Below, piece by piece: positions 28,014-41,547 of a stretch of 43,493 nucleotides of DNA. The notes beneath the pieces were generated by a model. The model was given only the letters and a program-made list of their open reading frames with translations. It searched no databases and had not been told where the DNA came from. The stretch's first letter is position 1, and the number at the start of each line of letters is the position of its first letter. Source of the stretch: Clostridia bacterium (GTDB lineage Bacteria; Bacillota; Clostridia; Christensenellales; CAG-1252); NCBI GenBank assembly GCA_017961365.1, contig JAGCXI010000020.1, positions 1-43,493 of the forward strand, read 5' to 3'. A program made the position numbers and the translations under genes.

Positions 28014-28037
28014 ATTAATTAAAAGGAATAAATTCTA

Positions 28038-28046
28038 TGCTATAAT
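28038..28046 (+). promoter_or_regulatory. Extended -10 promoter of the EAL/AAA block
   Basis: TGC-TATAAT is an extended -10 box. The sequence 17 bases upstream (ATTAAA) is a poor -35, so an activator at the nearby palindrome or the extended -10 would have to compensate. Transcription would start near 28053, giving a leader of about 180 bases. Confidence 0.6.
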
Positions 28047-28232: not shown

Positions 28233-30971
28233 TTGGCGGGCAAGAAGAGTTCTGACAACAAAGAACGTATCGAAGAAACTTCGGCTGTGAGCGAAGAGAG
28301 CTTGGAGACGTTTGACAGAGAACCGGAGGTCGCAGCGAACGCCCCCTCGGAGGACGAGAGGGATTCTTCTCTTATCTCGGAGGAGGTCGCAGAGACGCTT
28401 TCCGCGGAGGATATCGACACCGCGGATCTTGTCGTGTTCGAAGAAGTCCCGTCGGAGGACATGGCGCCTGCGGAAGTCCCCGCAGAGGAAGCGCCCGTTC
28501 CCGAGGCGGAAGAGGTGATCGCGGAAGAGCCCGCGCCTGTCGAAGCCGTTCTCGAAGAAGTCCTTCCCGAAGGATCCGAGAGCGAAGCGCCTGCGGAGCC
28601 CGCGGAGGAAACCGAAGAGATCCCCGTAGAAACGCCCGTAAGCGAAGAAAAAGCGCCCGAAGAAGAAGCGGAAGCGCTTGCCCTCTCCGTGGATGACACG
28701 CCCGCGGTGGCGGTGGCGGAGCCTGCCTCGGAAGAGCCGATCCAAGCGTCGGAGACGCCCGCGGAGACGCCTGCCGAGAATGCGGAAGGTGATTTCGTGA
28801 TGGATGAAGATTATCTGAAAGCCTTTATGGAAGAAGGCGAGATGGATGACTTCATTTACGGTGGGAACTTCGAAGAGAGACAAGAGCTTTTGGATAAGAT
28901 CGCCGACAACGCAGAGACCCTCGCGGAAGAAGGCACGGAGCTTTTGGAGCGTCAGGCGAAAGAGCAGGAAGAGAAGAAGGACGAGGTACGTTATAACGAA
29001 AAAGGCGAGCCCATCGACGAGAAGGGCAGAGCCATCTTGAAACGTAGCCTCGAGAATAAGCTTATTCTCGCCGATACGCGTGAGCGCAGATATTACAATA
29101 AGCTCAAGAACGCCATCCTCGCCTATCAAAACGTCAAGACGGATATGCAGGTCGCGACGGAAGTTTTCCGCGCGAATAAGCAGGTCGTGGCGCGTCTCGC
29201 TTTGGCGGGGTATACGCGCATCTATTTCGCCTTGAATCCCGATGAGTTCGACATCGACAGATATAAGCAGTCCAATGCGACGGAATATGACTTTGAAGAT
29301 ACGCAGATGATGATCCGCGTTCGCGATGACGACGAATACGCCATCGCCATCGAGCTGCTCACTTTGATGATGGGCGCGCTCGGCGTGGATAAAGCGGAGA
29401 AATACGAAGAAGAGGATTTCCTGCAGTATTTCCCCCGTCGCGAGGACGCAGTCCTCGACGCAAAAGGCAAGTATCTTGTCTTGGAGGAAAAAGATACGCA
29501 AGCGCTCCAAAAGGAGAAGCGTGCGGAAGAGCGTAAAGCCGCGGGCATCTCGGAAGAGGTCGAGCCCGAAGCGCCCGCTCCGGAGGAAGAGGAGAAGGAA
29601 GAGCCCATCGTCATCCTGCCGCTCACCCTCGAGAATAAGATCCACCAGACGACGAATACCATCAAGCTCTTGTACAGCAAATTGAAGAACGAATTATTGT
29701 CCTTCAAGACGGTGAAGAGCGAGATGAATGTCAAAAACGAGAATTTCCGCGCGGGCAAGCGCATTATCGCGCGTATGACCGTGATCAATGAGAACGTGCG
29801 TCTCTATCTCGCTTTGGATCCCAAGGCGTATTCCACGCGGAAATACGGACATAAGGACGCTTCCGATCAGAAGGATTACGAAGGCACCGTTTTGATGATG
29901 AAGATCGCGGGCGAGAAAGAGCGCCTGAACGCCGTCAAGCTCATCCAAGAGCTCATGACAGCGAATAAGCTCGAGCGCAATTCCCGTTACGTATACGTGC
30001 CCTTCGCGGAGAAATATCCTTATATCAAGAACGGCGTCTTCAAAGGCGACGAAGACAAGCCGCGGGTCAAGCACACCGGCGACGAATACGCGGACATTTA
30101 CGGCGAGCTGACGGAGCATCTCCGTTCTCAGCTCGGCATGAAGGACGCTTGGGGCGTCCCGAAGGGATATTCCGCGGAAGACGGGGTCACTGCAAAGGAT
30201 CTTCTCGAATTGCAGCGTAGCAAGGCGAAGACGATGAATGCGGGCGTCGCGCTCGCCACCCCCATCGTGCATTTCTATGACGCGGCGATCGACGAAGAAG
30301 GTAAAGTGCAGTACCTGAACGTCCAGCAGATCCTGAATGATAAATTCCTCGGCAAGATGCTCCCGCAGGAGTATTTCGCCATCGCGGAGGGCAGCCCCCG
30401 CATCGAAGAATTGAATTTCATCGCGCTCGAGATCGTGACCAAGGATTGCAATGAGAATCCCGACCTCCGTTTTGTCGTGAAGATCAGTTGCCGACTCCTT
30501 TTGAAGCAGGAGACCTTGACCAAGCTCGTGGATAAGATGAAGACCGAGCACGGAAATCTCATCCTTGCTTTCGACTGCGCGATGCTGGAAGCTTTGGGCT
30601 TTGCGGGCGTCAGCGCGATCAATACGTTGAAGTCGCAAGGCGCGCTCATCATGATCGACAACGCGGAGAGCGCGAGCATGCGCGTCCTCACGGAGTACGA
30701 TTTCGATTATTTGAGACTGGATGCGAGGTATTATAACGGAGACAGCTTGAAGCGTCTCGCGCACCTCGATATGATCACGGGATATGCCGCCGTGCAAAAC
30801 ATCGTGACCACTTCCATCAATTGCGAGCATAAAGAAGAAGCTCGCATTCTCCTCGATCACGGAGTGAAAGTGATACAGGGCGACGCGGTCGCGCGCCCGA
30901 TGCGACTGATCAATCTGGCGCTGACGAATATCAAGCCGGTGCCGAAGGTAAAGAAAGATGGCAAGCAATAA
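28233..30971 (+). CDS. Degenerate EAL-domain protein with duplicated Clostridia-type domain
   Basis: I start at TTG 28233, after GGAGGTTACA, giving 912 residues. Residues 1 to about 200 are an acidic Glu/Ala/Pro-rich stretch. Two copies of one domain follow (about 273-390 and 466-585), each with a LENK...YYNKLKN/LYSKLKN start, an arginine/lysine strand, (I/L)YFALNP or LYLALDP, and a C-terminal helix. Residues about 670-895 align by pattern to an EAL phosphodiesterase: ATPIV at the start, EYFAIAEGSPRIEEL, a final strand with QGDAVARPM. The catalytic residues are lost: the EAL glutamate is replaced, the DDFGTG loop reads IDNAESA (about 808-814), and AEGVET reads TSINCEH. It is probably a cyclic-di-GMP sensor or scaffold, not an enzyme. 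No membrane helix is seen. Its stop overlaps the next gene by 14 bases. Confidence 0.75.
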   Translation: MAGKKSSDNKERIEETSAVSEESLETFDREPEVAANAPSEDERDSSLISEEVAETLSAEDIDTADLVVFEEVPSEDMAPAEVPAEEAPVPEAEEVIAEEPAPVEAVLEEVLPEGSESEAPAEPAEETEEIPVETPVSEEKAPEEEAEALALSVDDTPAVAVAEPASEEPIQASETPAETPAENAEGDFVMDEDYLKAFMEEGEMDDFIYGGNFEERQELLDKIADNAETLAEEGTELLERQAKEQEEKKDEVRYNEKGEPIDEKGRAILKRSLENKLILADTRERRYYNKLKNAILAYQNVKTDMQVATEVFRANKQVVARLALAGYTRIYFALNPDEFDIDRYKQSNATEYDFEDTQMMIRVRDDDEYAIAIELLTLMMGALGVDKAEKYEEEDFLQYFPRREDAVLDAKGKYLVLEEKDTQALQKEKRAEERKAAGISEEVEPEAPAPEEEEKEEPIVILPLTLENKIHQTTNTIKLLYSKLKNELLSFKTVKSEMNVKNENFRAGKRIIARMTVINENVRLYLALDPKAYSTRKYGHKDASDQKDYEGTVLMMKIAGEKERLNAVKLIQELMTANKLERNSRYVYVPFAEKYPYIKNGVFKGDEDKPRVKHTGDEYADIYGELTEHLRSQLGMKDAWGVPKGYSAEDGVTAKDLLELQRSKAKTMNAGVALATPIVHFYDAAIDEEGKVQYLNVQQILNDKFLGKMLPQEYFAIAEGSPRIEELNFIALEIVTKDCNENPDLRFVVKISCRLLLKQETLTKLVDKMKTEHGNLILAFDCAMLEALGFAGVSAINTLKSQGALIMIDNAESASMRVLTEYDFDYLRLDARYYNGDSLKRLAHLDMITGYAAVQNIVTTSINCEHKEEARILLDHGVKVIQGDAVARPMRLINLALTNIKPVPKVKKDGKQ

Positions 30972-31926
30972 GAACGCGGAAAAAACGCCCGAGCAGATCT
31001 TGCAGGACCAAATACGCGCGGACAAAGAATACGTTATCAAGAATAAACGTGTTCGCCGTCAGACCCGCAGAAGAGCGATCGTGATCATTCTTCTGATCTT
31101 CTTGCTTATCATCGCTTTGCTCTCCGGCGCGACCTACGCGATCATGCGTTTCGTGGATGAGAGCAATTTCCGCGTGACCGTTACGCAGACAGGTACGCAA
31201 TGGCTCTCTCTTTCCAAAGACAAAGGATTCTCGGACGGAGGCCGAAGCGTTTTGGATGTCTCCGCGCCTAAGAATATGGACAACGTCACGCTCTGCAATC
31301 AGCTGGACGAGATGTTGCAGGATATGATCGCAACGGACGGCACCTATGAGGGCAGAGGGGCGGATACCTATTACATCGCCTCCACCTTCTATCTGACGAA
31401 TAGCGGCACGAAAGACGCGCAGTACAATGAGAGCATCACGCTCGAGCGCGCGTTGCGTAATATGGATAAAGCGATCCGTATCATTTTGATCAAGGATACG
31501 GACGTCGAAGACGATGCGCTCGGCGAGATCGTCGCGTACGCCGCCTATGCTTCGGATGAGAACGGCAATGACCTTTTGGACGAAAACGGGCTTCCCATTC
31601 GCGAAGAAGTCGTTCCCGACGTCGGTTATAAGCCGAAGGAGACGCTTTGGTATGACGGGCTCACTTTCGACGAAGCGGATCTGGACGAGAATGGCGTATG
31701 GTACGCGAAGCCTTTCGTCGGGAACGGGTACGTGCATAAGAGCGAGTTTTATCCCATCACGCCCGGACAAAAAATCAAATACACCGTTGTGATCTGGCTT
31801 GAGGGTCAAGATCCGCAGTGTGTGGGTGATAATGACAGCTTGATCGATGCCGAAAGAGGCATCCTCGGCGGACAGGTGAAGCTTTCCGTTGAGTTCACGA
31901 CGGCAAATACAGTAGAAATAAAATAG
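30958..31926 (+). CDS. TasA/camelysin-like exported protein
   Basis: The 322-residue product has a long basic N-region (residues 1-39, RRQTRRR just before the core), a hydrophobic core at 40-61 ending SGATYA, and a beta-rich extracellular part. A-x-x-A-like small residues at the end of the core fit cleavage by a SipW-type peptidase, as for TasA and CalY. The C-terminal KYTVVIWLEGQDPQC ... GGQVKLSVEFTT resembles the conserved end of TasA-like proteins of Clostridia. STFYLTNSGT near residue 142 is the typical '(F/Y)xLxNxG' strand. It overlaps the EAL-like gene by 14 bases and precedes a SipW-like peptidase by 16, so it is the likely substrate. Fibre formation is inference. Confidence 0.65.
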   Translation: MASNKNAEKTPEQILQDQIRADKEYVIKNKRVRRQTRRRAIVIILLIFLLIIALLSGATYAIMRFVDESNFRVTVTQTGTQWLSLSKDKGFSDGGRSVLDVSAPKNMDNVTLCNQLDEMLQDMIATDGTYEGRGADTYYIASTFYLTNSGTKDAQYNESITLERALRNMDKAIRIILIKDTDVEDDALGEIVAYAAYASDENGNDLLDENGLPIREEVVPDVGYKPKETLWYDGLTFDEADLDENGVWYAKPFVGNGYVHKSEFYPITPGQKIKYTVVIWLEGQDPQCVGDNDSLIDAERGILGGQVKLSVEFTTANTVEIK

Positions 31927-31942
31927 GAGAAAAGAAGACAAG

Positions 31943-32851
31943 ATGGAAGAAGAGAATAAGAGAATAGACGAGGCGAATCTCGAAGAGCAGAAAGCGCCCG
32001 AAGAGACTGCCTCGGAAGTGACAGCGCCCGTGGAGGAAGCTCCGATCGCGGCGGCGGAAGAAGCGCCCGTCGAAAAGAAAGACGAGGCGGCGGAAGAGAA
32101 AGACGAGAAGGGAAAGAAGCCGATCACCAAGACGAAGAAGATCTTAAACGCCATTGTTTTGGGCGTGCAGATCGCTTTTGTCGTCTTGTCGATCACGATC
32201 TGCCTCGTGATGCTTTTGAACCCGAAGGCGCAGGACGAAGTCTCCCCGCTCGGCGTGAAGCTCCTCACCGTAAACTCCCCCTCAATGGACGGGACGGAAA
32301 AGGACAGCTTTGGCGTGAACGATCTCGTCATCGCCAAGAATCCGAAAAACGGCGGCGAAGGCTTGCAGAAGGGCGATATCATCACCTTCAAGATGCTGGA
32401 AAAAGAAAGTGGGCTCTTCATCATCAACACCCACAGAATAGACGAAGTCATCACGGAAAACGGCTTTACGCAGTATAAGACCAAAGGTGACGCGAATCCG
32501 ATGCAGGATCCCGGCTGGGTCAGCGCGGATAACGTCCTCGCCGTTTATGCCTTCCATATCAAAGGTCTCGGTAAGGCGATCAAATGGGTGCGTGACGGTT
32601 ACCACTTCATTTTCGTGGTCATCATCCCGCTCGGATTGCTCTTGATCTATAACATTTACCTCGTCGCGCAGATCGTGGTCGAAGGAAAGATGAAGAAAGC
32701 CAAAGTGGCGGCGGCGGAAGCGGCTGCCGCGTCGGCGCGCGCAAATCTCAGCGAGGAGGATCTCCTGAGACTTTTGAAGGAAAGAGGCATAGATCCTGCC
32801 GCCATTAAAAAGCAGGACGATAAAACCGACGATACAGGAAGTGATCAATGA
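31943..32851 (+). CDS. SipW-type signal peptidase with acidic N-terminus
   Basis: The 302-residue product belongs to the S26B (ER/archaeal-type) signal peptidases, which use a Ser-His pair instead of Ser-Lys. The nucleophile is Ser114 in NSPSM, the histidine is His164 in NTHRID, and the late acidic box is TKGDANPMQD (about 180-189). Membrane helices are at about 68-92 and 221-247. Two parts are unusual for SipW: an acidic Glu/Ala/Pro N-terminus of about 58 residues and a long C-terminal cytoplasmic tail. Bacillus SipW cleaves TasA; here the TasA-like gene is directly upstream. RBS is weakly GGAGAAAAG. Confidence 0.85.
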   Translation: MEEENKRIDEANLEEQKAPEETASEVTAPVEEAPIAAAEEAPVEKKDEAAEEKDEKGKKPITKTKKILNAIVLGVQIAFVVLSITICLVMLLNPKAQDEVSPLGVKLLTVNSPSMDGTEKDSFGVNDLVIAKNPKNGGEGLQKGDIITFKMLEKESGLFIINTHRIDEVITENGFTQYKTKGDANPMQDPGWVSADNVLAVYAFHIKGLGKAIKWVRDGYHFIFVVIIPLGLLLIYNIYLVAQIVVEGKMKKAKVAAAEAAAASARANLSEEDLLRLLKERGIDPAAIKKQDDKTDDTGSDQ

Positions 32852-32924
32852 TCCGTCTCGGCGAGTGAGGCGGACGGCACGGTAGTATTCCGTTCGAAAA
32901 AGGGGAAAGGGAAAGGTACGTACT

Positions 32925-34505
32925 ATGTTCACTGATTTTATAAGAGATTTTTTACAAGTATTCTTCTTCGGATTCCTGGGATTCTTCTATACCCAGCCCG
33001 GCGGAATCGCGAATTTCAGTTGGTACGGAGGTGTATTCGGCGCCTTCCGTCAGCTCTTCGCGGTGGATCAATACGTTGCGGTGGTGGAGAAATATCAGGC
33101 GATGAGTCAGATGCAGACCGGACAATGGATCGGCGCTTGGGTCGTCGTGATCCTCGTCATCCTCGCCTTGCTTGCGATCGTGGTCGTCGGGCTTTATTTC
33201 CTCATTCGTTTCTTCAAGAGACTCTTCGGCAGCCGCGTCTTGAATCAAGACCTTGTGGATGAGATCGGAAATTTGAAAGGGCAGATCGTGAAGCTCACGA
33301 GAGAGAAGGATCGTATCCTCGGCCTCAAGATCGGTTATCAGGGATATGACGTTCTCGAAGGGAATGAAGGCGAAGATACCAGCAGCGAGAAGAAAGAGGG
33401 CGAGAGCCGTTTCTATAAGCTCACCGAAGTCGATATGACCTATGCCGAGGAGGGTTCTCAGCGTCATACCGAATTTAATAAAGAGATCAGCTTGGAGGAG
33501 ATCTGCGACACCTTCCGTAATTACGCGGCGAATAACCCGCAGAGACCGTGGCGTAAGCTCTATTACGAGCCCAAGATCATCCGCCTCTTCTTCGCAAGCT
33601 TGGCTACAACGCGACTCATCATCCTGCAAGGTATATCCGGTACCGGTAAAACCTCACTTCCCGAGTGTATCGGTCACTTCATCGATAACCCCACGACCAT
33701 CGCCTCCGTGCAGCCGTCCTGGCGTGACAGAACCGAGATCTTCGGATACTTCAACGAATTTACCAAGAGGTTTAACGAGACTGAGGTCTTGAAGGCGATG
33801 TACGACGCAACGTATAACGAAGACGTCTATCTGACCGTCCTCGACGAAATGAACATCGCTCGTGTCGAGTACTACTTCGCGGAAATGCTCTCCATTGTGG
33901 AAATGCCGTCCCGTGATCAGTGGATCGTTGACCACGTCCCGAGCGGCTGGCCTTCCGACCCGAAGCACGTCGAGAAGGGTCGTTTCCGTCTCCCCGAGAA
34001 TATGTGGTTCGTCGGCACGGCGAACAACGACGATAGTACCTTCGCCATCTCCGATAAGGTGTACGATCGTGGTATGCCGATCAACATCAACAGCAAGGCG
34101 AAGCCTTTCGACGCTCCGCTCACCGATATGATGCCGCTTTCCTATAAGCATCTCGAAGAGCTCTTTAAGAAAGCGCAGGAAGAGCATAAGGTCAGCGATG
34201 AGAACCTCAAGAAATTCGAAGAAATGGACGATTACGTGATCGAGCACTTCCGCTTGGCGTTTGGTAACCGTATCGTGAAGCAGCTCCGTGAGTTCGTGCC
34301 CGTGTACGTGGCGTGCGGCGGCACGGAGATCGACGGCTTGGACTACGTGCTCTGTAATAAGATCCTCCGTAAGTTCGAGTCCTTGAACCTCGCTTACATC
34401 CGTGACGAGGTGGATGACTACATCCAATACCTCTCCGATCACTTCGGCGAGGAAAATATGACCGAGTGTAAAGAATATCTCGAAAGGTTGAAGAAGCTCT
34501 TCTAA
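32925..34505 (+). CDS. Membrane-anchored McrB-like AAA+ ATPase
   Basis: The 526-residue product begins with a hydrophobic, Phe-rich segment (about 4-22), a strong membrane helix (about 68-96) and a short coiled coil, then an AAA+ module. Walker A is GISGTGKTS (about 236-244), Walker B is YLTVLDEMNIAR (about 301-312) and sensor 1 is VGTANND (about 363-369). LDEMN-(I/L)-ARVEYYFAEMLS is characteristic of McrB-type ATPases. The N-terminal DNA-binding domain of restriction McrB is replaced here by the membrane anchor. The following gene encodes a DUF2357/McrC-like partner, so the pair probably works as an ATP-driven complex at the membrane inner face. Confidence 0.85.
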   Translation: MFTDFIRDFLQVFFFGFLGFFYTQPGGIANFSWYGGVFGAFRQLFAVDQYVAVVEKYQAMSQMQTGQWIGAWVVVILVILALLAIVVVGLYFLIRFFKRLFGSRVLNQDLVDEIGNLKGQIVKLTREKDRILGLKIGYQGYDVLEGNEGEDTSSEKKEGESRFYKLTEVDMTYAEEGSQRHTEFNKEISLEEICDTFRNYAANNPQRPWRKLYYEPKIIRLFFASLATTRLIILQGISGTGKTSLPECIGHFIDNPTTIASVQPSWRDRTEIFGYFNEFTKRFNETEVLKAMYDATYNEDVYLTVLDEMNIARVEYYFAEMLSIVEMPSRDQWIVDHVPSGWPSDPKHVEKGRFRLPENMWFVGTANNDDSTFAISDKVYDRGMPININSKAKPFDAPLTDMMPLSYKHLEELFKKAQEEHKVSDENLKKFEEMDDYVIEHFRLAFGNRIVKQLREFVPVYVACGGTEIDGLDYVLCNKILRKFESLNLAYIRDEVDDYIQYLSDHFGEENMTECKEYLERLKKLF

Positions 34506-34527
34506 TCATCATAAGGACGCATAGGCA

Positions 34528-37155
34528 ATGGCAGAAAAGAAGAAGTACGAAGAATATCTATATTACTTGAGTACGCTCTTAAAACAAGAGGACTTTTATT
34601 CTACCTATTCGGACTATATCGCGCAAGGCAAGAATAGTTTCCAGATCTCTCAGCGTTTCCAAAAGCAGATCTTTGACGAAAGCTGGATCGACACCTTGGA
34701 GGACTGTATCGTCGCGCTTGATACCATCGTTCGTAACCCGCGTAAGTTCATCGTCGTGGAAGAGGATATCGTGGATATCTCTCTTGCGCGTTCCATCTCC
34801 GTTGAGTCGGTCAAGCACCTTGCGCAGCATACGAACTTTATTTCCAGCGTTACGAAAGACGGCATGGTCATCCCGAGCAAGATCCTGAATACGTCCAAGG
34901 AAGAAAGCTACGAGATCTATGAGAACCGCTTCATTTACACCTTGCTTCTCAAGACCAAGGACTTCATTTCCCGTCGTTATAACCTCATCAAACAAGCCAG
35001 CTTGAATAGCGACCAGATCGTCGTGAATGTCACGAGTGATTTCGGGCTCGATAAGGAGAATAGCATCAAGTACACGATGTCCACAACGGCGAATATGCCG
35101 GTCGAGAGCGTCGTCGGCACGGCGGAAGATCTCTCCTTGATCGAGCGTGTCGAGCGTATCAACAGCATCGTCGGCAGCTTCCTTGCCAGCCCCTTCGCGA
35201 AAGAAATGGTCAGCTGTGCGCTCGTCCGCCCGCCTATCACGCGTACGAACGTCATCTTGAAGGACCCGAACTTTAAAAAAGCCCTTGTCCTTTGGCAGTT
35301 CATCGAGTCTTATAATAAAGTCGGTTTCGAGGTGGAGACCATCACCGAGACCAGAGACCTTTCGCCCACCGTGGCGGAGAAATACCGCGACCTCATTTAC
35401 CTCAATACCCTCGTCGTGGAGTCCATGGCGTCCAAGGTGGAGGGCGGCCTCATCGAAGAGAAAGAGCTCGAGAAGCAGAAGAACCTCGAGAACGAATACC
35501 TCACCAAGAATATCGACGACTTCGTGCCGGATGATTTCCCGCAGCTCCATATGGATCTCCATGAGATCCGCCGCTTGTATACGACGGTCCCCGGGGATAA
35601 GGAAGTGCCGCAGGAAGATCTGCGCAAGATGAATGCCGCGCTCGACAGGGTCATTCGTCAGTATAAGATCAATACGGCGAAGGAAGACAGCGCAAGGCAG
35701 AAAGCTCTCTTGAAGCAACAGCTGAAGGAAGAGCAACAGCTCAAGCTCGAAGCCTTGAAGCAGGCACAGAAAGACGCGAAAGAGGCGGAGAAGAGACGCA
35801 AATTAGAAGAGAAAGAACGCATTCGCGCGGAGAAGGAAGCGGAAAAAGCCGCCAAACAAGCCAAGCGCGAAGAGGAAGAGCGTATCAAGCGTGAGAAGCG
35901 TGAGATGCATGACAGAGTGGTGCGCGCCGAAGAGAGACTTATGCGTTTGAGACTCTGTCAGGAAGAGGCGGAGATGGAGAGACGTCTCGCCGCGGAGAAA
36001 GCGAGACTCGAAGAGATCCAACGCTCCGAGATCGAGCGTATGGAGACGGAGAAGATGCTCCTCGCCGAACAGCTCGAACGCGAAAAGGCGATGACCTACA
36101 TCGCGCCGCTTGAGGGCGAAGCCCTCTTGCTCCTCCGTAAGAAGGAGATCCGCCGCATCGAAGAGATGCGTCAAGAGCAAGAGAAGACGATGCAGCAGCT
36201 CATCACCACGCACTATGCCGATATGGAAGCGCAGCAGAAGCAAGCCATCATCGATATGGAAGAGCTTGCCGCGCTCATCAATTTCGATAACGTAACGGTC
36301 AGCGAAGAAGAACGTAGGGAAGCGATGGAGGCGGAAGACGTCAACGTGCTTACCTATGGGAAGGAGGAGATCAACGATATCCTCAATGACAAGCTGACGC
36401 CCTCGCAGCTCGAGGAAGAGAAAGCGGCGGCGGAGCCGCCCGTGCCGGAAGTGGGTGATTACGGCTTTGAGGAGCTCGGTCAAGACGCGGAAGAAGTGGT
36501 CTTCGAGCTCGTGCCGGAAGAAGAGCCCGAGCCGGAAGCGGCGCCCGAAGAGCCCGCGGAAGAGCCCAAGCCCGAAGAGGAGCTTTCTCACGCCGCAGAT
36601 GAAGCGGGAGATCCGACGATGGCTTCCGCAGAGGACGAATGGAGCTTTATCGACTCCTTGAAAGTGGATGCGCCCGCAGCGCCCGTCACGCCCGTTATCC
36701 TTGCGCAGGAAGAGACGGATCGCGAGAACGTCGCGGTCTCGAGAGCGGAGCGTAAGGCATATAAGCAGCGCTTGAAGGCAGAGGCGAAAGCCAAGAAAGA
36801 GGCGGAGAAGGCGCGCCGTGAGCAGGAGAAGAAAGAGCAGAAAGAGCGCTTAAAGCGCCTCGAAGAAGAGAATAAAGCCGCCGCGACCACGAGCTATGCG
36901 CCCACGTCGCCGCGTCCCAAGAAACAGCCCAATCCTTATACGCCTACGGCGGAGGACATCTTAGCGCCGAAGCCGAGAGAAGAGGCGCCGAAGACCGCAG
37001 AGACCCCCGTTTCGGAGATCAAAGTGAGCGGCGGCGCGGGAGGAGCGGCGCGTCCGCGCACCTTCGTGCCTCGTTCCTATAAGCCGATCATCATCACGCC
37101 AGACAATATCCACGAAGTGCTGGGAGACGATAAAGGCAAGAAGAAAAAGAAATAA
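34528..37155 (+). CDS. DUF2357/McrC-like protein with coiled coil, no nuclease
   Basis: The 875-residue product has an N-terminal globular domain of about 350 residues resembling DUF2357 (the N-terminal domain of McrC-like partners), with the marker YEIYENRFIYTLLLKT near 128-143. Residues about 365-620 are a long, highly charged coiled coil (runs of Lys, Glu, Arg). Residues about 630-770 are acidic and Pro-rich, then a second basic coiled coil and a disordered end (PRTFVPRSYKPIIITPDNIH before a poly-lysine stop). The PD-(D/E)xK nuclease domain of McrC is not seen. No membrane helix is present. It follows the AAA+ gene by 22 bases. It looks like a structural adaptor for that ATPase. Confidence 0.7.
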   Translation: MAEKKKYEEYLYYLSTLLKQEDFYSTYSDYIAQGKNSFQISQRFQKQIFDESWIDTLEDCIVALDTIVRNPRKFIVVEEDIVDISLARSISVESVKHLAQHTNFISSVTKDGMVIPSKILNTSKEESYEIYENRFIYTLLLKTKDFISRRYNLIKQASLNSDQIVVNVTSDFGLDKENSIKYTMSTTANMPVESVVGTAEDLSLIERVERINSIVGSFLASPFAKEMVSCALVRPPITRTNVILKDPNFKKALVLWQFIESYNKVGFEVETITETRDLSPTVAEKYRDLIYLNTLVVESMASKVEGGLIEEKELEKQKNLENEYLTKNIDDFVPDDFPQLHMDLHEIRRLYTTVPGDKEVPQEDLRKMNAALDRVIRQYKINTAKEDSARQKALLKQQLKEEQQLKLEALKQAQKDAKEAEKRRKLEEKERIRAEKEAEKAAKQAKREEEERIKREKREMHDRVVRAEERLMRLRLCQEEAEMERRLAAEKARLEEIQRSEIERMETEKMLLAEQLEREKAMTYIAPLEGEALLLLRKKEIRRIEEMRQEQEKTMQQLITTHYADMEAQQKQAIIDMEELAALINFDNVTVSEEERREAMEAEDVNVLTYGKEEINDILNDKLTPSQLEEEKAAAEPPVPEVGDYGFEELGQDAEEVVFELVPEEEPEPEAAPEEPAEEPKPEEELSHAADEAGDPTMASAEDEWSFIDSLKVDAPAAPVTPVILAQEETDRENVAVSRAERKAYKQRLKAEAKAKKEAEKARREQEKKEQKERLKRLEEENKAAATTSYAPTSPRPKKQPNPYTPTAEDILAPKPREEAPKTAETPVSEIKVSGGAGGAARPRTFVPRSYKPIIITPDNIHEVLGDDKGKKKKK

Positions 37156-37164
37156 TGAGAAGAA

Positions 37165-37186
37165 GGGGGCGGTTTCGACTGCCCCC
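37165..37186 (+). other. GC-rich hairpin between the DUF2357 and second SipW genes
   Basis: GGGGGCGG (37165-37172) pairs with CTGCCCCC (37179-37186) with one wobble, around a six-base loop. No T-run follows, so full termination is unlikely. It replaces the usual spacer: the next ATG (37203) has no AGGAGG within 15 bases. The hairpin may modulate translation or protect mRNA ends. Confidence 0.5.
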
Positions 37187-37202
37187 GCATCACCTATAGC
37201 GT

Positions 37203-37889
37203 ATGTCAAAAGAACAAGCAACGAAAAAGCCGCAATCCAAAGCAAAGAAGATCCTGAGCGCCATTCTCACCGCCATTTTGATTTTACTCGTCATCGGCGG
37301 GATCGCTCTCGTCGTCCATGTCAAGACGGCGAAGGATCCTTCCATCTTCGGATACAGCGTATATACGGTGGCGACGGGCTCCATGACCCCCGCTTTGCGT
37401 GTGGGCGACGTGATCCTCGTCAAGAAAGTCACCGATCCCGCATCCCTTCAAAAAGATGATATCATCACCTTTTACGGGCAGGGGAAACAGTCCGGGAAGA
37501 TCATCACGCACCGCATCGTTTCCGAAGGCGTGGAGTCGGACGGAACGATCCGCACCTGCGGCGACGCGAATAACGGGCTCGTGGATGATCCCATCGGGTT
37601 TGAGCACGTCATCGGGAAAATGATAAAAAAATCCGGCGCGCTTTATTTCCTCCATTCCGCTTTTTCGAGCAAGATCGGCTTCGTCCTCATCGTATTCCTC
37701 CCGCTTCTCATCCTGCTCATCATTCAGGTGGTGAATTTCGCGCGCGCCTGCAAGATGGATAAGAACGGAAACGTTAAAGGCGAGGAACCCGCCGAGGAGA
37801 GCGAAGAAGAGAAGGACAGAAAGCTCATCGAAGAATATTTGCGGCGGCAAAAGGAGAATGAAAAGGGAGAAGAGAAGAAGGACGAATGA
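37203..37889 (+). CDS. Second SipW-type signal peptidase
   Basis: The 228-residue product is again of the S26B Ser-His type. Ser60 lies in ATGSM, His103 in ITHRIV, and the acidic box is CGDANNGLVDDP (about 119-130). Helices are at about 16-40 and 157-180. It lacks the long acidic N-terminus of the other copy and ends in a charged tail. Two SipW-like enzymes bracketing the AAA+/DUF2357 pair suggest that they serve different substrates or stages. A canonical ribosome site is missing; the start is set by the start of homology-like sequence and the next hydrophobic segment. Confidence 0.85.
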   Translation: MSKEQATKKPQSKAKKILSAILTAILILLVIGGIALVVHVKTAKDPSIFGYSVYTVATGSMTPALRVGDVILVKKVTDPASLQKDDIITFYGQGKQSGKIITHRIVSEGVESDGTIRTCGDANNGLVDDPIGFEHVIGKMIKKSGALYFLHSAFSSKIGFVLIVFLPLLILLIIQVVNFARACKMDKNGNVKGEEPAEESEEEKDRKLIEEYLRRQKENEKGEEKKDE

Positions 37890-37921: not shown

Positions 37922-37951
37922 GCGGACACGCTTCTCGTGCCCGCTTTTTTT
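37922..37951 (+). terminator. Terminator of the EAL/AAA block
   Basis: GCGGACACG (37922-37930) pairs with CGTGCCCGC (37936-37944) with one mismatch around CTTCT, followed by seven T. It closes the block after the second SipW-like gene. Confidence 0.85.
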
Positions 37952-38118: not shown

Positions 38119-41100
38119 ATGCTTGAAGTAAAAGATCTGACGAAAGTATATACGGGCAAGGGCGGCGTGGTCACGCGCGCGCTCGACGGCGTCTCCGTCG
38201 TCTTCCCCGAGAAAGGGATGGTCTTTCTCCTCGGTAAGAGCGGATCGGGTAAGTCCACGCTTTTGAACGTGGCGGGCGGTCTCGACAAGCCGGACGGCGG
38301 CGAGGTCATCGTGAAGGGCAGAAGCAGCAAGGATTTCTCGGGCTCGGATTTCGACAGTTACAGAAATACCTTTATCGGCTTCGTCTTCCAAGAATACAAC
38401 ATCTTGAATGAATTCACCATCGAGCAGAATATTTCCCTCGCGCTTCAATTGCAGAATAAGCCGAATAACAAGCAGGCGGTGGAGGATCTGCTCAAAAAGG
38501 TGGACCTCGTCGGATACGGAAAGAGAAAGCCGAATACCCTCTCGGGCGGACAGAAGCAGAGAGTCGCCATCGCGCGTGCGCTCATCAAAGAGCCCGAGAT
38601 CATCATGGCGGACGAGCCGACTGGCGCTTTGGACTCCACGACGGGCAAGCAGGTCTTGGACACCTTGAAGAAGCTCTCGCAGGAGAAGCTCGTCATCGTG
38701 GTCTCGCATGATCGGGACTTCGCGGAGTTTTACGGCGATAGGATCATCGAGCTCAAGGACGGCAAGGTGATCTCGGACGTCAGCAAGACTTATTCCGAGC
38801 CGCAGGACACGACGGAGAATGTCAGCCAAGTCTCGGAGGATACCATCACCATCAAGAAGGGCTCGGATATCACGGACGAGGACGTGAAGCGTATCGCGGA
38901 GATGCTCCGTCAGAGTGAGGGCGAAGCCATCATCACCACGAGCGCGCGCGAGCTCCCGGACGTCAAACGCGCGTGTAAGATCAATGATTCGGGCGCGAAA
39001 GAGTCCTTTAAGGACACGGAGGAAGTGGAGATCGCGTCCTATGACGGCTCGAAGACCAAGTTTATCAAGTCGCACCTTCCCATGGGGCATGCCATTAAGA
39101 TGGGCGCGAGCGGCTTGAGAACCAAGCCGATCCGCTTGATCTTCACCATCATCCTTGCTGTGGCGGCTTTCATCCTCTTCGGCGTGGTCTCCACCTTTAT
39201 GCTCTACGATCCCGATTACTCGGTCTCCGAAGCCTTGAAAGAGGCGAACTATCCGAACGTTACCGTGGACAAGCATTACACCTATACGCGCACTTCGTAC
39301 CGCGTCAATAATAAGACGGGGGAGGAAGAAGTGGATTACACCGACGATGACGATGCCTATACCCTCTTCACGGCGGAAGAGATCGCCGCGATGAATAAAA
39401 ACGGGCTGAATTTCGCGGGTATCTACACTTTTAATAACAGCACATACAGCAATGCTTCTCGTTTCAACATGGGGCTGATGAAAGACGGAAGTTATACGAC
39501 AATCTCCCTTGAAGACGAGCTTCGGGAGTATTATTCCGTGACGGATCCGATGGGCGTTACGGACTGCGGCGAGGCTTATCTCCGCAGAAATGGGTTCTCG
39601 ATCACGGGTGATTATCCCGCGAACGAGAAAGAGATCATGCTGTCCGAGTACTTCGCGGAGCTTTTCGTGAATACAACGGCTTGCGGCGTCGCGAATACGC
39701 AGGAAATGATCGGCAAGAAAGTGCGCCTCTCGAATTCGAGCGGAATGCAAGTGGAATTCACCGTCACCGGCATCGTGAAGACGGGAGAGATCCCTGCGAG
39801 CTATGCCGAGTTGAAGAAGACGGGAAATTTAAGCGAAAAAGAGCGTGATACGCTCTCGGCGAAACTGAGAGATTATCTCTCACATGGCTATGAGAGCCTT
39901 ATCTACGTGTCGGCGGATTTTTATGACGCTTATTCGGAGTATATCCCGAAGGAGAGCTCCGGACCGTACATTCCGTCGCAATATGTCACTTCCCTTCGCA
40001 TGGAAAGCACGCCTTCCACGAATGGGATCGAAGAATGGGACGGCTCGAGTTTTTATACGGAAAATACCCTTGAGAAATATGCGGGGAGTTTCGTTTTTAA
40101 GAATTTGGACGGCTCGGTGAAGACAGATACTTCCTTTAATGAAGACGAGATCTACATCTCGGAGAATCGATATTATGATATGTTACGGAATGCGGTTTGG
40201 CAGTATGATCTGAACGTGAGATATGACCCTGACGCATTGACGGAGATCGGGTATTCCGAAGACGAAACCGAATATTGGATCGCGAGAAACAATATTTATA
40301 ACGGTAACAGCCATATTAAAACTGTTTTTGAGTATATCGACAAATGGTACGCTAAGCTTGCCTACAAAGACTATCTCTACAACGCAGGACAGATGATCTA
40401 TTGGGACGTTTATAATAAAGAAAGCAAGACGGCGGCAGAGGAGAGCTTCCTTGCTTCTTACGACGCCATCAATGCGTATGCGAATAAGTCTAAGGACGAT
40501 GTGGTGGCGGCGCCTACCGCAGCGCAATGGAATGCGCTTGAAAGCTATATAAATGCGAGGTTCGCTTCCGAAGATGCGCAGCGCCGCTACGGAATTTTGC
40601 TCGAGAAAGCTCTCGGTCGATTCGGTTTCGATTCTTTCGCAGGGAAAGAGGACGAAGTGGATCCGTGGAATATCGTGAGCGGATTAAAGAATAACGATTA
40701 TTCGGCGGAAGATTTCGCCCTTTTGAAGACGAAGATCGACGCATACTTTGCCCAATTCGGTCTTACGGCGGATCCCGCGACCTTCTTCACTTTCGATTCG
40801 TCGAAGTTGGTGCAATATATTTATTATTGCGATAAGGCGAGCAAGCACGGCAAGCTCAAAGTCGTGGGCTACATCGAGAATATGACTAACGCGGAGTACT
40901 GTGTGAAAGAGTCCTTCCTCACCGCGCATGGCGTGATCAATAAAGACGAGAACGAATATTCTTGGTATAGCGCGGAGACGACGGACTACGTGATGCCCGC
41001 GGGCGCGAAGTATAATAAAGCCATCTCCCTCACGAATAATTCCATCGAGCAGATCGCCGTGGCGAATGCGAAGGAGGGCGCCGTCTTCTATCGGATCGAT

Positions 41101-41547
41101 AATAACGTGATGCAGAGCTTGGATTATTTCCTGAATCTCATAGAGATGCTGGAGAAAATCTTCCTTTACGTCGGCTTGGGCGTGGGACTCATCGCGGCGC
41201 TCTTCCTCTTAAACTTCATCTCGGTCTCCATCTCCGCGAAGAGAAAGGACATCGGCATTCTGCGCGCCGTGGGTGCGAGAGGTTCGGACGTCTTCAAGAT
41301 CTTCTATGCGGAAGCCTTCATCATCGCCATCATCTGCTTCTTGATCGCTTGCGTGGGATCCTTCTTCGTCTGCTTCTTCTTAAATCGTTCCATCTCGGAA
41401 GTCTTGAATATGCAGGTCTTGCATTTCGGACCGATCAACGGCGCTTTGATCCTCGGCATCTCCATCGTGATCTCCCTCATCGCCACATTCTTCCCCGTGT
41501 ATTTCGCGGCGAAGAAATCGCCTGTGGAGTCCATAAGGGCGCTGTAA
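38119..41547 (+). CDS. Single-chain ABC exporter with FtsX/MacB core and giant ectodomain
   Basis: The 1,142-residue product fuses the ATPase and permease. Residues 1-235 are a MacB/LolD-type ATPase: Walker A LLGKSGSGKST (about 37-47), Q-loop FVFQEYN, signature LSGGQKQR, Walker B IIMADEPTGALD and H-loop VVSHD. After a linker of about 100 residues comes one membrane helix (about 335-358), an extracellular part of about 640 residues with no family I can name, then three helices at the C-terminus with the FtsX segment (VSISAKRKDIGILRAVGARG near 1035-1054). Like MacB, it would work as a homodimer in mechanotransmission rather than classical transport. Substrate unknown. It is monocistronic with its own promoter. 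Confidence 0.88.
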   Translation: MLEVKDLTKVYTGKGGVVTRALDGVSVVFPEKGMVFLLGKSGSGKSTLLNVAGGLDKPDGGEVIVKGRSSKDFSGSDFDSYRNTFIGFVFQEYNILNEFTIEQNISLALQLQNKPNNKQAVEDLLKKVDLVGYGKRKPNTLSGGQKQRVAIARALIKEPEIIMADEPTGALDSTTGKQVLDTLKKLSQEKLVIVVSHDRDFAEFYGDRIIELKDGKVISDVSKTYSEPQDTTENVSQVSEDTITIKKGSDITDEDVKRIAEMLRQSEGEAIITTSARELPDVKRACKINDSGAKESFKDTEEVEIASYDGSKTKFIKSHLPMGHAIKMGASGLRTKPIRLIFTIILAVAAFILFGVVSTFMLYDPDYSVSEALKEANYPNVTVDKHYTYTRTSYRVNNKTGEEEVDYTDDDDAYTLFTAEEIAAMNKNGLNFAGIYTFNNSTYSNASRFNMGLMKDGSYTTISLEDELREYYSVTDPMGVTDCGEAYLRRNGFSITGDYPANEKEIMLSEYFAELFVNTTACGVANTQEMIGKKVRLSNSSGMQVEFTVTGIVKTGEIPASYAELKKTGNLSEKERDTLSAKLRDYLSHGYESLIYVSADFYDAYSEYIPKESSGPYIPSQYVTSLRMESTPSTNGIEEWDGSSFYTENTLEKYAGSFVFKNLDGSVKTDTSFNEDEIYISENRYYDMLRNAVWQYDLNVRYDPDALTEIGYSEDETEYWIARNNIYNGNSHIKTVFEYIDKWYAKLAYKDYLYNAGQMIYWDVYNKESKTAAEESFLASYDAINAYANKSKDDVVAAPTAAQWNALESYINARFASEDAQRRYGILLEKALGRFGFDSFAGKEDEVDPWNIVSGLKNNDYSAEDFALLKTKIDAYFAQFGLTADPATFFTFDSSKLVQYIYYCDKASKHGKLKVVGYIENMTNAEYCVKESFLTAHGVINKDENEYSWYSAETTDYVMPAGAKYNKAISLTNNSIEQIAVANAKEGAVFYRIDNNVMQSLDYFLNLIEMLEKIFLYVGLGVGLIAALFLLNFISVSISAKRKDIGILRAVGARGSDVFKIFYAEAFIIAIICFLIACVGSFFVCFFLNRSISEVLNMQVLHFGPINGALILGISIVISLIATFFPVYFAAKKSPVESIRAL

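Follow-up and report, generated by a model that had tools for sequence, protein, structure and literature searches.

A candidate TasA-type fibre export module with a membrane-anchored McrBC-like NTPase pair and paired SipW-type peptidases in a Clostridia bacterium

Proteins of the McrBC family are familiar as enzymes of DNA restriction, and we know of no experiment linking any McrB/DUF2357 pair to export. The main text of a 2024 study (PMC11090510) describes a large branch of McrB relatives with an NxD signature, usually followed by D or E, whose members called CoCoNuTs are predicted defence systems. It also names in two sentences, and leaves uncharacterised, a clade called CoCoPALM, in which the NTPase is fused to a transmembrane (TM)/coiled-coil (FtsB-like) segment and adjoined by signal peptidases; in the literature we found CoCoPALM described only in that paper and its preprint. 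SipW-dependent fibres are described in Bacillus subtilis, for which donor-strand assembly of TasA fibres and the roles of SipW and TapA have been reported (PMC9674648) and a chaperone role of TapA is claimed in the title of PMC10151520. Literature searches for SipW and McrB together returned only an expression-system context, irrelevant here.

Here we analyse a window of 43,493 nucleotides (the whole stretch of DNA examined), which is contig C51 of G000, the MAG of a gut bacterium (1.4 Mb, 88% complete), and contains six co-directional + strand genes between 28233 and 37889, with short gaps or overlaps (Table 1). The interpretation that we favour, and consider reasonably probable, is that this block is an export and assembly module for TasA-type surface fibres with a McrBC-derived engine. 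A preliminary description of this DNA had listed six closely spaced genes forming one functional block in a SipW/TasA-type fibre context: a degenerate EAL protein, an exported TasA-like protein, two Ser-His SipW peptidases, and an McrB/McrC-type pair made up of a membrane-anchored AAA+ protein with McrB motifs and a DUF2357-like coiled-coil partner. All six genes are present, each assignment is borne out by the evidence given below, and the grouping is supported by a repeated neighbourhood across 61 loci. The start proposed for gene 1 also holds, the TTG at 28233 being the best start and preceded by TTTGGAGG. The promoter and terminator were upheld in part: the promoter-like site is present and scores best of six in the region, six being the number expected by chance, and the hairpin with its T run is visible, its fold stability being unremarkable (z -1.1). 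Both calls are plausible for the block and statistically ordinary. Directly after the block (38119-41547) lies a gene for a 1142-aa fused ABC ATPase/FtsX-type permease, which is kept downstream of the module in the genus members L035, L036, L054, L055 and L084, though not in L034.

Table 1. Positions of the six genes and associated features in the window
Feature	Position	Strand	Description	Scores
Gene 1	28233..30971	+	acidic N-terminus, two similar internal segments, degenerate C-terminal EAL domain (~30300-30899)	
Gene 2	30958..31926	+	TasA-fold, TapA-like; conserved basic cytosolic tail, one TM helix, extracellular beta domain	
Gene 3	31943..32851	+	upstream SipW-type (Ser-His) signal peptidase, SipUp clade	TIGR02228 58.9 bits; NF046067 E 8e-21
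Gene 4	32925..34505	+	membrane-anchored McrB-type AAA+ NTPase, NxD variant	
Gene 4 TM segment	33144..33206	+	aa 74-94; C-terminal side richer in K/R; coiled-coil-like segment next	
Gene 4 Walker A	33630..33653	+	GISGTGKT, aa 236-243	
Gene 4 NxD motif	34023..34031	+	N367-N368-D369, then D370, in GTANNDDSTF	
Gene 5	34528..37155	+	DUF2357 (McrC N-terminal domain-like), long coiled coil, low-complexity tail	
Gene 5 DUF2357 match	34699..35016	+	PF09823, aa 58-163	
Gene 6	37203..37889	+	downstream SipW-type (Ser-His) signal peptidase, SipDn clade	TIGR02228 75.4 bits; NF046067 E 1.2e-26
Promoter-like site	28019..28046	+	TTAAAA-N16-TATAAT, extended -10 (TG)	
Terminator-like hairpin	37922..37951	+	followed by seven T	

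The census behind this grouping comprised 61 non-redundant loci with the AAA+ architecture of the window, same-strand partners being counted within about 9.5 kb. SipW-type and DUF2357 genes were each found at 60 of these loci, two SipW-type genes at 53, a TasA-type gene at 50 and an EAL-type gene at 40; for the 43 well-flanked loci the corresponding counts were 43 (SipW), 42 (DUF2357), 40 (two SipW), 36 (TasA-type) and 34 (EAL-type). The well-flanked locus scored without DUF2357 appears to be L112, in which a 777-aa gene in the place of DUF2357 was labelled EAL-type; this is probably the DUF2357 gene, caught through coiled-coil similarity to the N-terminal profile of the EAL protein. Of 101 relatives, 35 encode the AAA+ protein, and a profile search at E <= 1e-60 recovered it from 104 of 396 genomes in the order; these counts take in more distant, non-SipW types. 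In a phylum-wide sample of 398 genomes the window AAA+ matched only its own genome at a strict threshold, and the window type thus looks restricted.

In searches of the PDB the gene 4 protein matched McrB structures only. Besides Walker A it carries a Walker B motif (LDEMN) and the sequence GTANNDDST (aa 364-372), in which N367, D369 and D370 are invariant among 21 aligned AAA+ sequences; the NxxD signature is absent, and was seen (GTMNTSDRS) only in the distant protein of locus L085. Gene 4 has one TM segment, and such a segment is found at 60 of 60 loci, with the C-terminus predicted to be cytosolic; the coil-like stretch after it was judged by eye. The coiled coil of FtsB lies outside the cytosol and gene 4 has no Pfam match to FtsB, so any likeness of its TM/coil segment to FtsB is tentative. 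Gene 5 matches DUF2357 at 31.7 bits (cut-off 23.3) after removal of its low-complexity tail, and the match is followed by a modelled helix of 108 residues (aa 362-469). Pfam detected no nuclease family (no PD-(D/E)xK) in the whole protein, and DUF2357 is the sole recurring family in the first 470 aa of its homologues. With the AF2 model of gene 5 (pTM 0.45) nothing in the PDB matched significantly, and McrC was not among the matches listed; a profile search of PDB sequences gave weak coiled-coil-type matches only. The DUF2357 assignment is carried by the Pfam match instead.

Other membrane or tandem arrangements of the same proteins were encountered. Four loci (L070, L072, L073 and L124) have a tandem AAA+-DUF2357-AAA+ order; they carry NxD motifs, lack SipW and TasA-type neighbours, and in three cases continue with two more proteins that belong to one family (u3). 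At L074-L081 and L126 the membrane NxD AAA+ proteins are larger (587-915 aa), and for several of them 4-11 TM segments are predicted; they mostly adjoin DUF2357, mostly without SipW, and represent other membrane McrBC-like forms.

Both peptidases exceed the TIGR02228 cut-off (51.85 bits) and score below the 190 bits required by the equivalog model for Bacillus SipW, and their Ser-His dyad is invariant wherever aligned. SipUp and SipDn form two lines (100 of 103 sequences split correctly, 0.98 support), and the pair is therefore a stable feature rather than a recent duplication. These two are the only G000 peptidases over the SipW-type cut-off; a SipW match was found in 52 of 101 relatives, making SipW commoner than the module.

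A Foldseek comparison of the gene 2 model with the PDB ranked the TasA fibre 8aur first (E 2.1e-4, prob 0.99); next came a bundling pilus from Pyrobaculum and two crystal structures of TasA (the four best being 8aur, 7ueg, 5of2 and 5of1), with low TM-scores (0.28/0.37 for the best). There is also a weak match to a TapA model (E 0.0044), and gene 2 is closer to TapA than to a canonical SipW substrate. It has a divergent SGATYAIMRF site placed after a cytosolic tail, and the consensus of that tail in the TapA-like proteins (YIIKNKxVRRxxRRR) is kept across families; that a surface protein conserves such a tail suggests that it has a partner in the cytosol. Searches of PDB sequences with the TasA-type profiles returned nothing useful, so that the basis of the TasA assignment is the comparison of folds together with the signal peptides.

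In other families, some of the module proteins open with typical SipW-type signals, for example MKKSLLFSTLLFILVLLIALSTATFAWFS (STATFAWFS type). The G000 operon itself contains no gene with such a signal; elsewhere in G000, contigs C68 and C8 carry three orphan genes with a common SipW-type signal, MKKRLLITSIVMMLVVAVALSTATYAWFT (typical ATYAWFT). Canonical TasA-type proteins are present in 17 of 24 module-bearing relatives compared to 1 of 77 without the module, an upper-end estimate inflated by a profile (A1) that was built from module loci. At locus L148 of C8 (6718-8701), two oppositely oriented TasA-type genes are placed end to end; their signal peptides are identical, and they could mark a site of recombination or variation. 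In several loci of other families the module continues with additional genes for SipW-signal proteins and for exported proteins of very large size. At L047, L049, L062, L092, L093 and L121, runs of small SipW-signal proteins lie near the module together with exported proteins of 800-2300 aa; Pfam gave no match in those of the large proteins that were scanned.

We propose that TasA-type precursors would be exported across the membrane, cut by the two dedicated SipW-type peptidases and assembled on the TapA-like anchor protein, the canonical precursors of G000 being supplied by the three orphan genes outside the operon. At the cytosolic face, a membrane-anchored ring of the McrB-type AAA+ protein with its DUF2357 coiled-coil activator would power or gate export, processing or assembly, its plausible point of action being the basic tail of the TapA-like protein. 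The EAL-derived protein may serve as a cytosolic scaffold or adaptor that in this lineage no longer uses c-di-GMP. Against such an engine, the described SipW fibre operons of Bacillus and Clostridium perfringens include no McrB/DUF2357 pair (PMC9674648, PMC7395162). We also count against the fibre model that all 21 aligned AAA+ homologues match the PADLOC candidate-defence model PDC-M26A, that the structural model of the DUF2357 protein finds no McrC, and that 11 of the 61 loci have no TasA-type gene in reach (some are truncated by the end of a contig, and genes that diverge fast may escape detection). A different role for the AAA+/DUF2357 pair, in regulation or quality control (such as the remodelling of Sec, SipW or stuck precursors) and not as a motor of fibre export, appears unlikely to us but deserves weight, as known SipW/TasA fibres assemble through donor-strand exchange, for which no motor is described (PMC9674648), and the median pairwise identity of 55% for the AAA+ protein versus 25% for the exported TapA-like part is what would be expected of a shared device.

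The match to PDC-M26A, and the predicted defence role of the related CoCoNuTs in the main text of PMC11090510, would also be explained if the McrB/DUF2357 pair were a membrane-anchored restriction-like or abortive anti-phage system, with the fibre and peptidases sensing or blocking phage. We consider this distinctly unlikely, as the DUF2357 protein has no detected nuclease domain and the flanks are mostly housekeeping genes rather than defence islands. The commonest Pfam families among 121 neighbouring proteins are ComM-type Mg_chelatase, LRR_5, AAA_5, GGDEF, DprA and RNA polymerase alpha; matches to defence models are scattered, and no methyltransferase or restriction family recurs among the matches listed. 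Furthermore, the module has a fixed position in the window's genus, after the ribosomal/rpoA-rplQ operon. Thus the pair does not always accompany restriction or defence genes, nor are its homologues scattered without a repeated neighbourhood, the two findings that the preliminary description had named as refuting its proposal.

The earlier proposal that the fibre is controlled by c-di-GMP through the EAL protein did not hold for G000. The EAL domain of gene 1 is recognised by Pfam (PF00563, 58.2 bits, cut-off 31.3) and retains only 3 of the 11 catalytic positions of an EAL phosphodiesterase, 8 of 11 being degenerate, with the catalytic glutamates, Asn and Lys lost; across the window's clade 0-3 of 11 are retained. 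No GGDEF match was found in G000 (an absence that is provisional in an 88% complete MAG), and GGDEF is absent from 36 of 42 genomes carrying only the window's clade and present in the other 6. Sister clades differ: many of their loci have an intact or near-intact EAL (8-11 of 11 residues, in many 11/11) adjoining the module, and GGDEF is present in 16 of 16 of their genomes (Fisher p 9e-10 for the contrast, uncorrected for phylogeny). The c-di-GMP idea therefore fits the wider family, and for the window organism is very improbable. The EAL domains of the window's clade carry their own set of conserved residues across families, and are thus probably under selection for some other function. The N-terminal part of the EAL protein (window 28233-30300) is acidic and probably disordered at its start, with two similar internal segments after that (~aa 285-430 and ~480-640). 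Clades with intact EAL and GGDEF, set beside those with degenerate EAL and mostly without GGDEF, amount to a natural experiment on the gain or loss of second-messenger control by a secretion module.

In the AAA+ tree several of the order's families fall into the window's clade, and nested within it (99/95) are four rows from MAGs of Bacillales and Erysipelotrichaceae with gene content kept, which points to whole-module transfer; the module has apparently passed into Bacilli, and while binning error is possible for single contigs, four independent MAGs agree. Pairwise AAA+ identities track those of the partners (Mantel rho 0.92 for DUF2357, 0.89 for EAL and ~0.6 for SipW; 0 of 499 permutations), correlations to which common ancestry contributes. 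The repeated neighbourhood that had been suggested as a check is therefore found, both in Bacilli and across several of the order's families, and the block is more than chance. Gene order is variable, some families having peptidase and TasA-type genes between or after AAA+ and DUF2357. These shifting positions are what functionally unrelated neighbours merely sharing a promoter might show, an explanation that we reject as scarcely credible since different families, and Bacilli as well, retain the gene content. For the fibre module that we favour, we tentatively raise a broader scenario, as a possibility rather than an expectation: a restriction-derived McrB/McrC pair may have become the membrane engine of TasA-type fibre secretion, and in lineages without c-di-GMP signalling the machine's c-di-GMP enzyme may have turned into a nucleotide-free structural part. 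If true, a nuclease-free membrane McrBC pair tied to TasA-type fibres would be a case of the McrBC family working outside defence.

Compared to known systems, the window AAA+ and DUF2357 proteins are related to E. coli McrB and to the N-terminus of McrC, respectively, and differ from type IV restriction by McrBC in having NxD rather than NxxD, a membrane anchor, no PD-(D/E)xK nuclease found in the McrC homologue and no restriction context. The B. subtilis tapA-sipW-tasA operon (PMC9674648) shares a TapA-like anchor, a SipW peptidase and TasA-fold fibre proteins, but has one SipW instead of two and no AAA+, DUF2357 or EAL partner. The C. perfringens sipW-bsaABCRSD operon (PMC7395162) likewise exports a filament through SipW in a clostridium, but is under two-component control and as described has no McrBC-type or EAL gene. 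By composition, the engine is grouped with the CoCoPALM branch of McrBC-like systems: gene 4 is an NxD McrB-type NTPase with a TM segment and a putative coiled coil in which NxD is followed by D (GTANNDDST), its DUF2357 partner, the McrC homologue gene 5, has a coiled coil, and signal peptidases adjoin at 60 of 61 loci, two of them at 53. The TasA-type and EAL proteins, the paired SipW lines and the c-di-GMP link are not mentioned in the main text of PMC11090510. The preliminary description, which knew of no described system with this combination, is thus only partly right: as far as that main text goes, it holds for the EAL, TasA-type and paired peptidase components, and it has to yield as to the union of McrB-TM/coiled coil and signal peptidases, which that paper had already named CoCoPALM. 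A conserved and transferable module of this kind would supply a testable substrate for that named but unstudied class, to which the present comparison adds candidate fibre substrates, paired peptidases and a lost c-di-GMP link.
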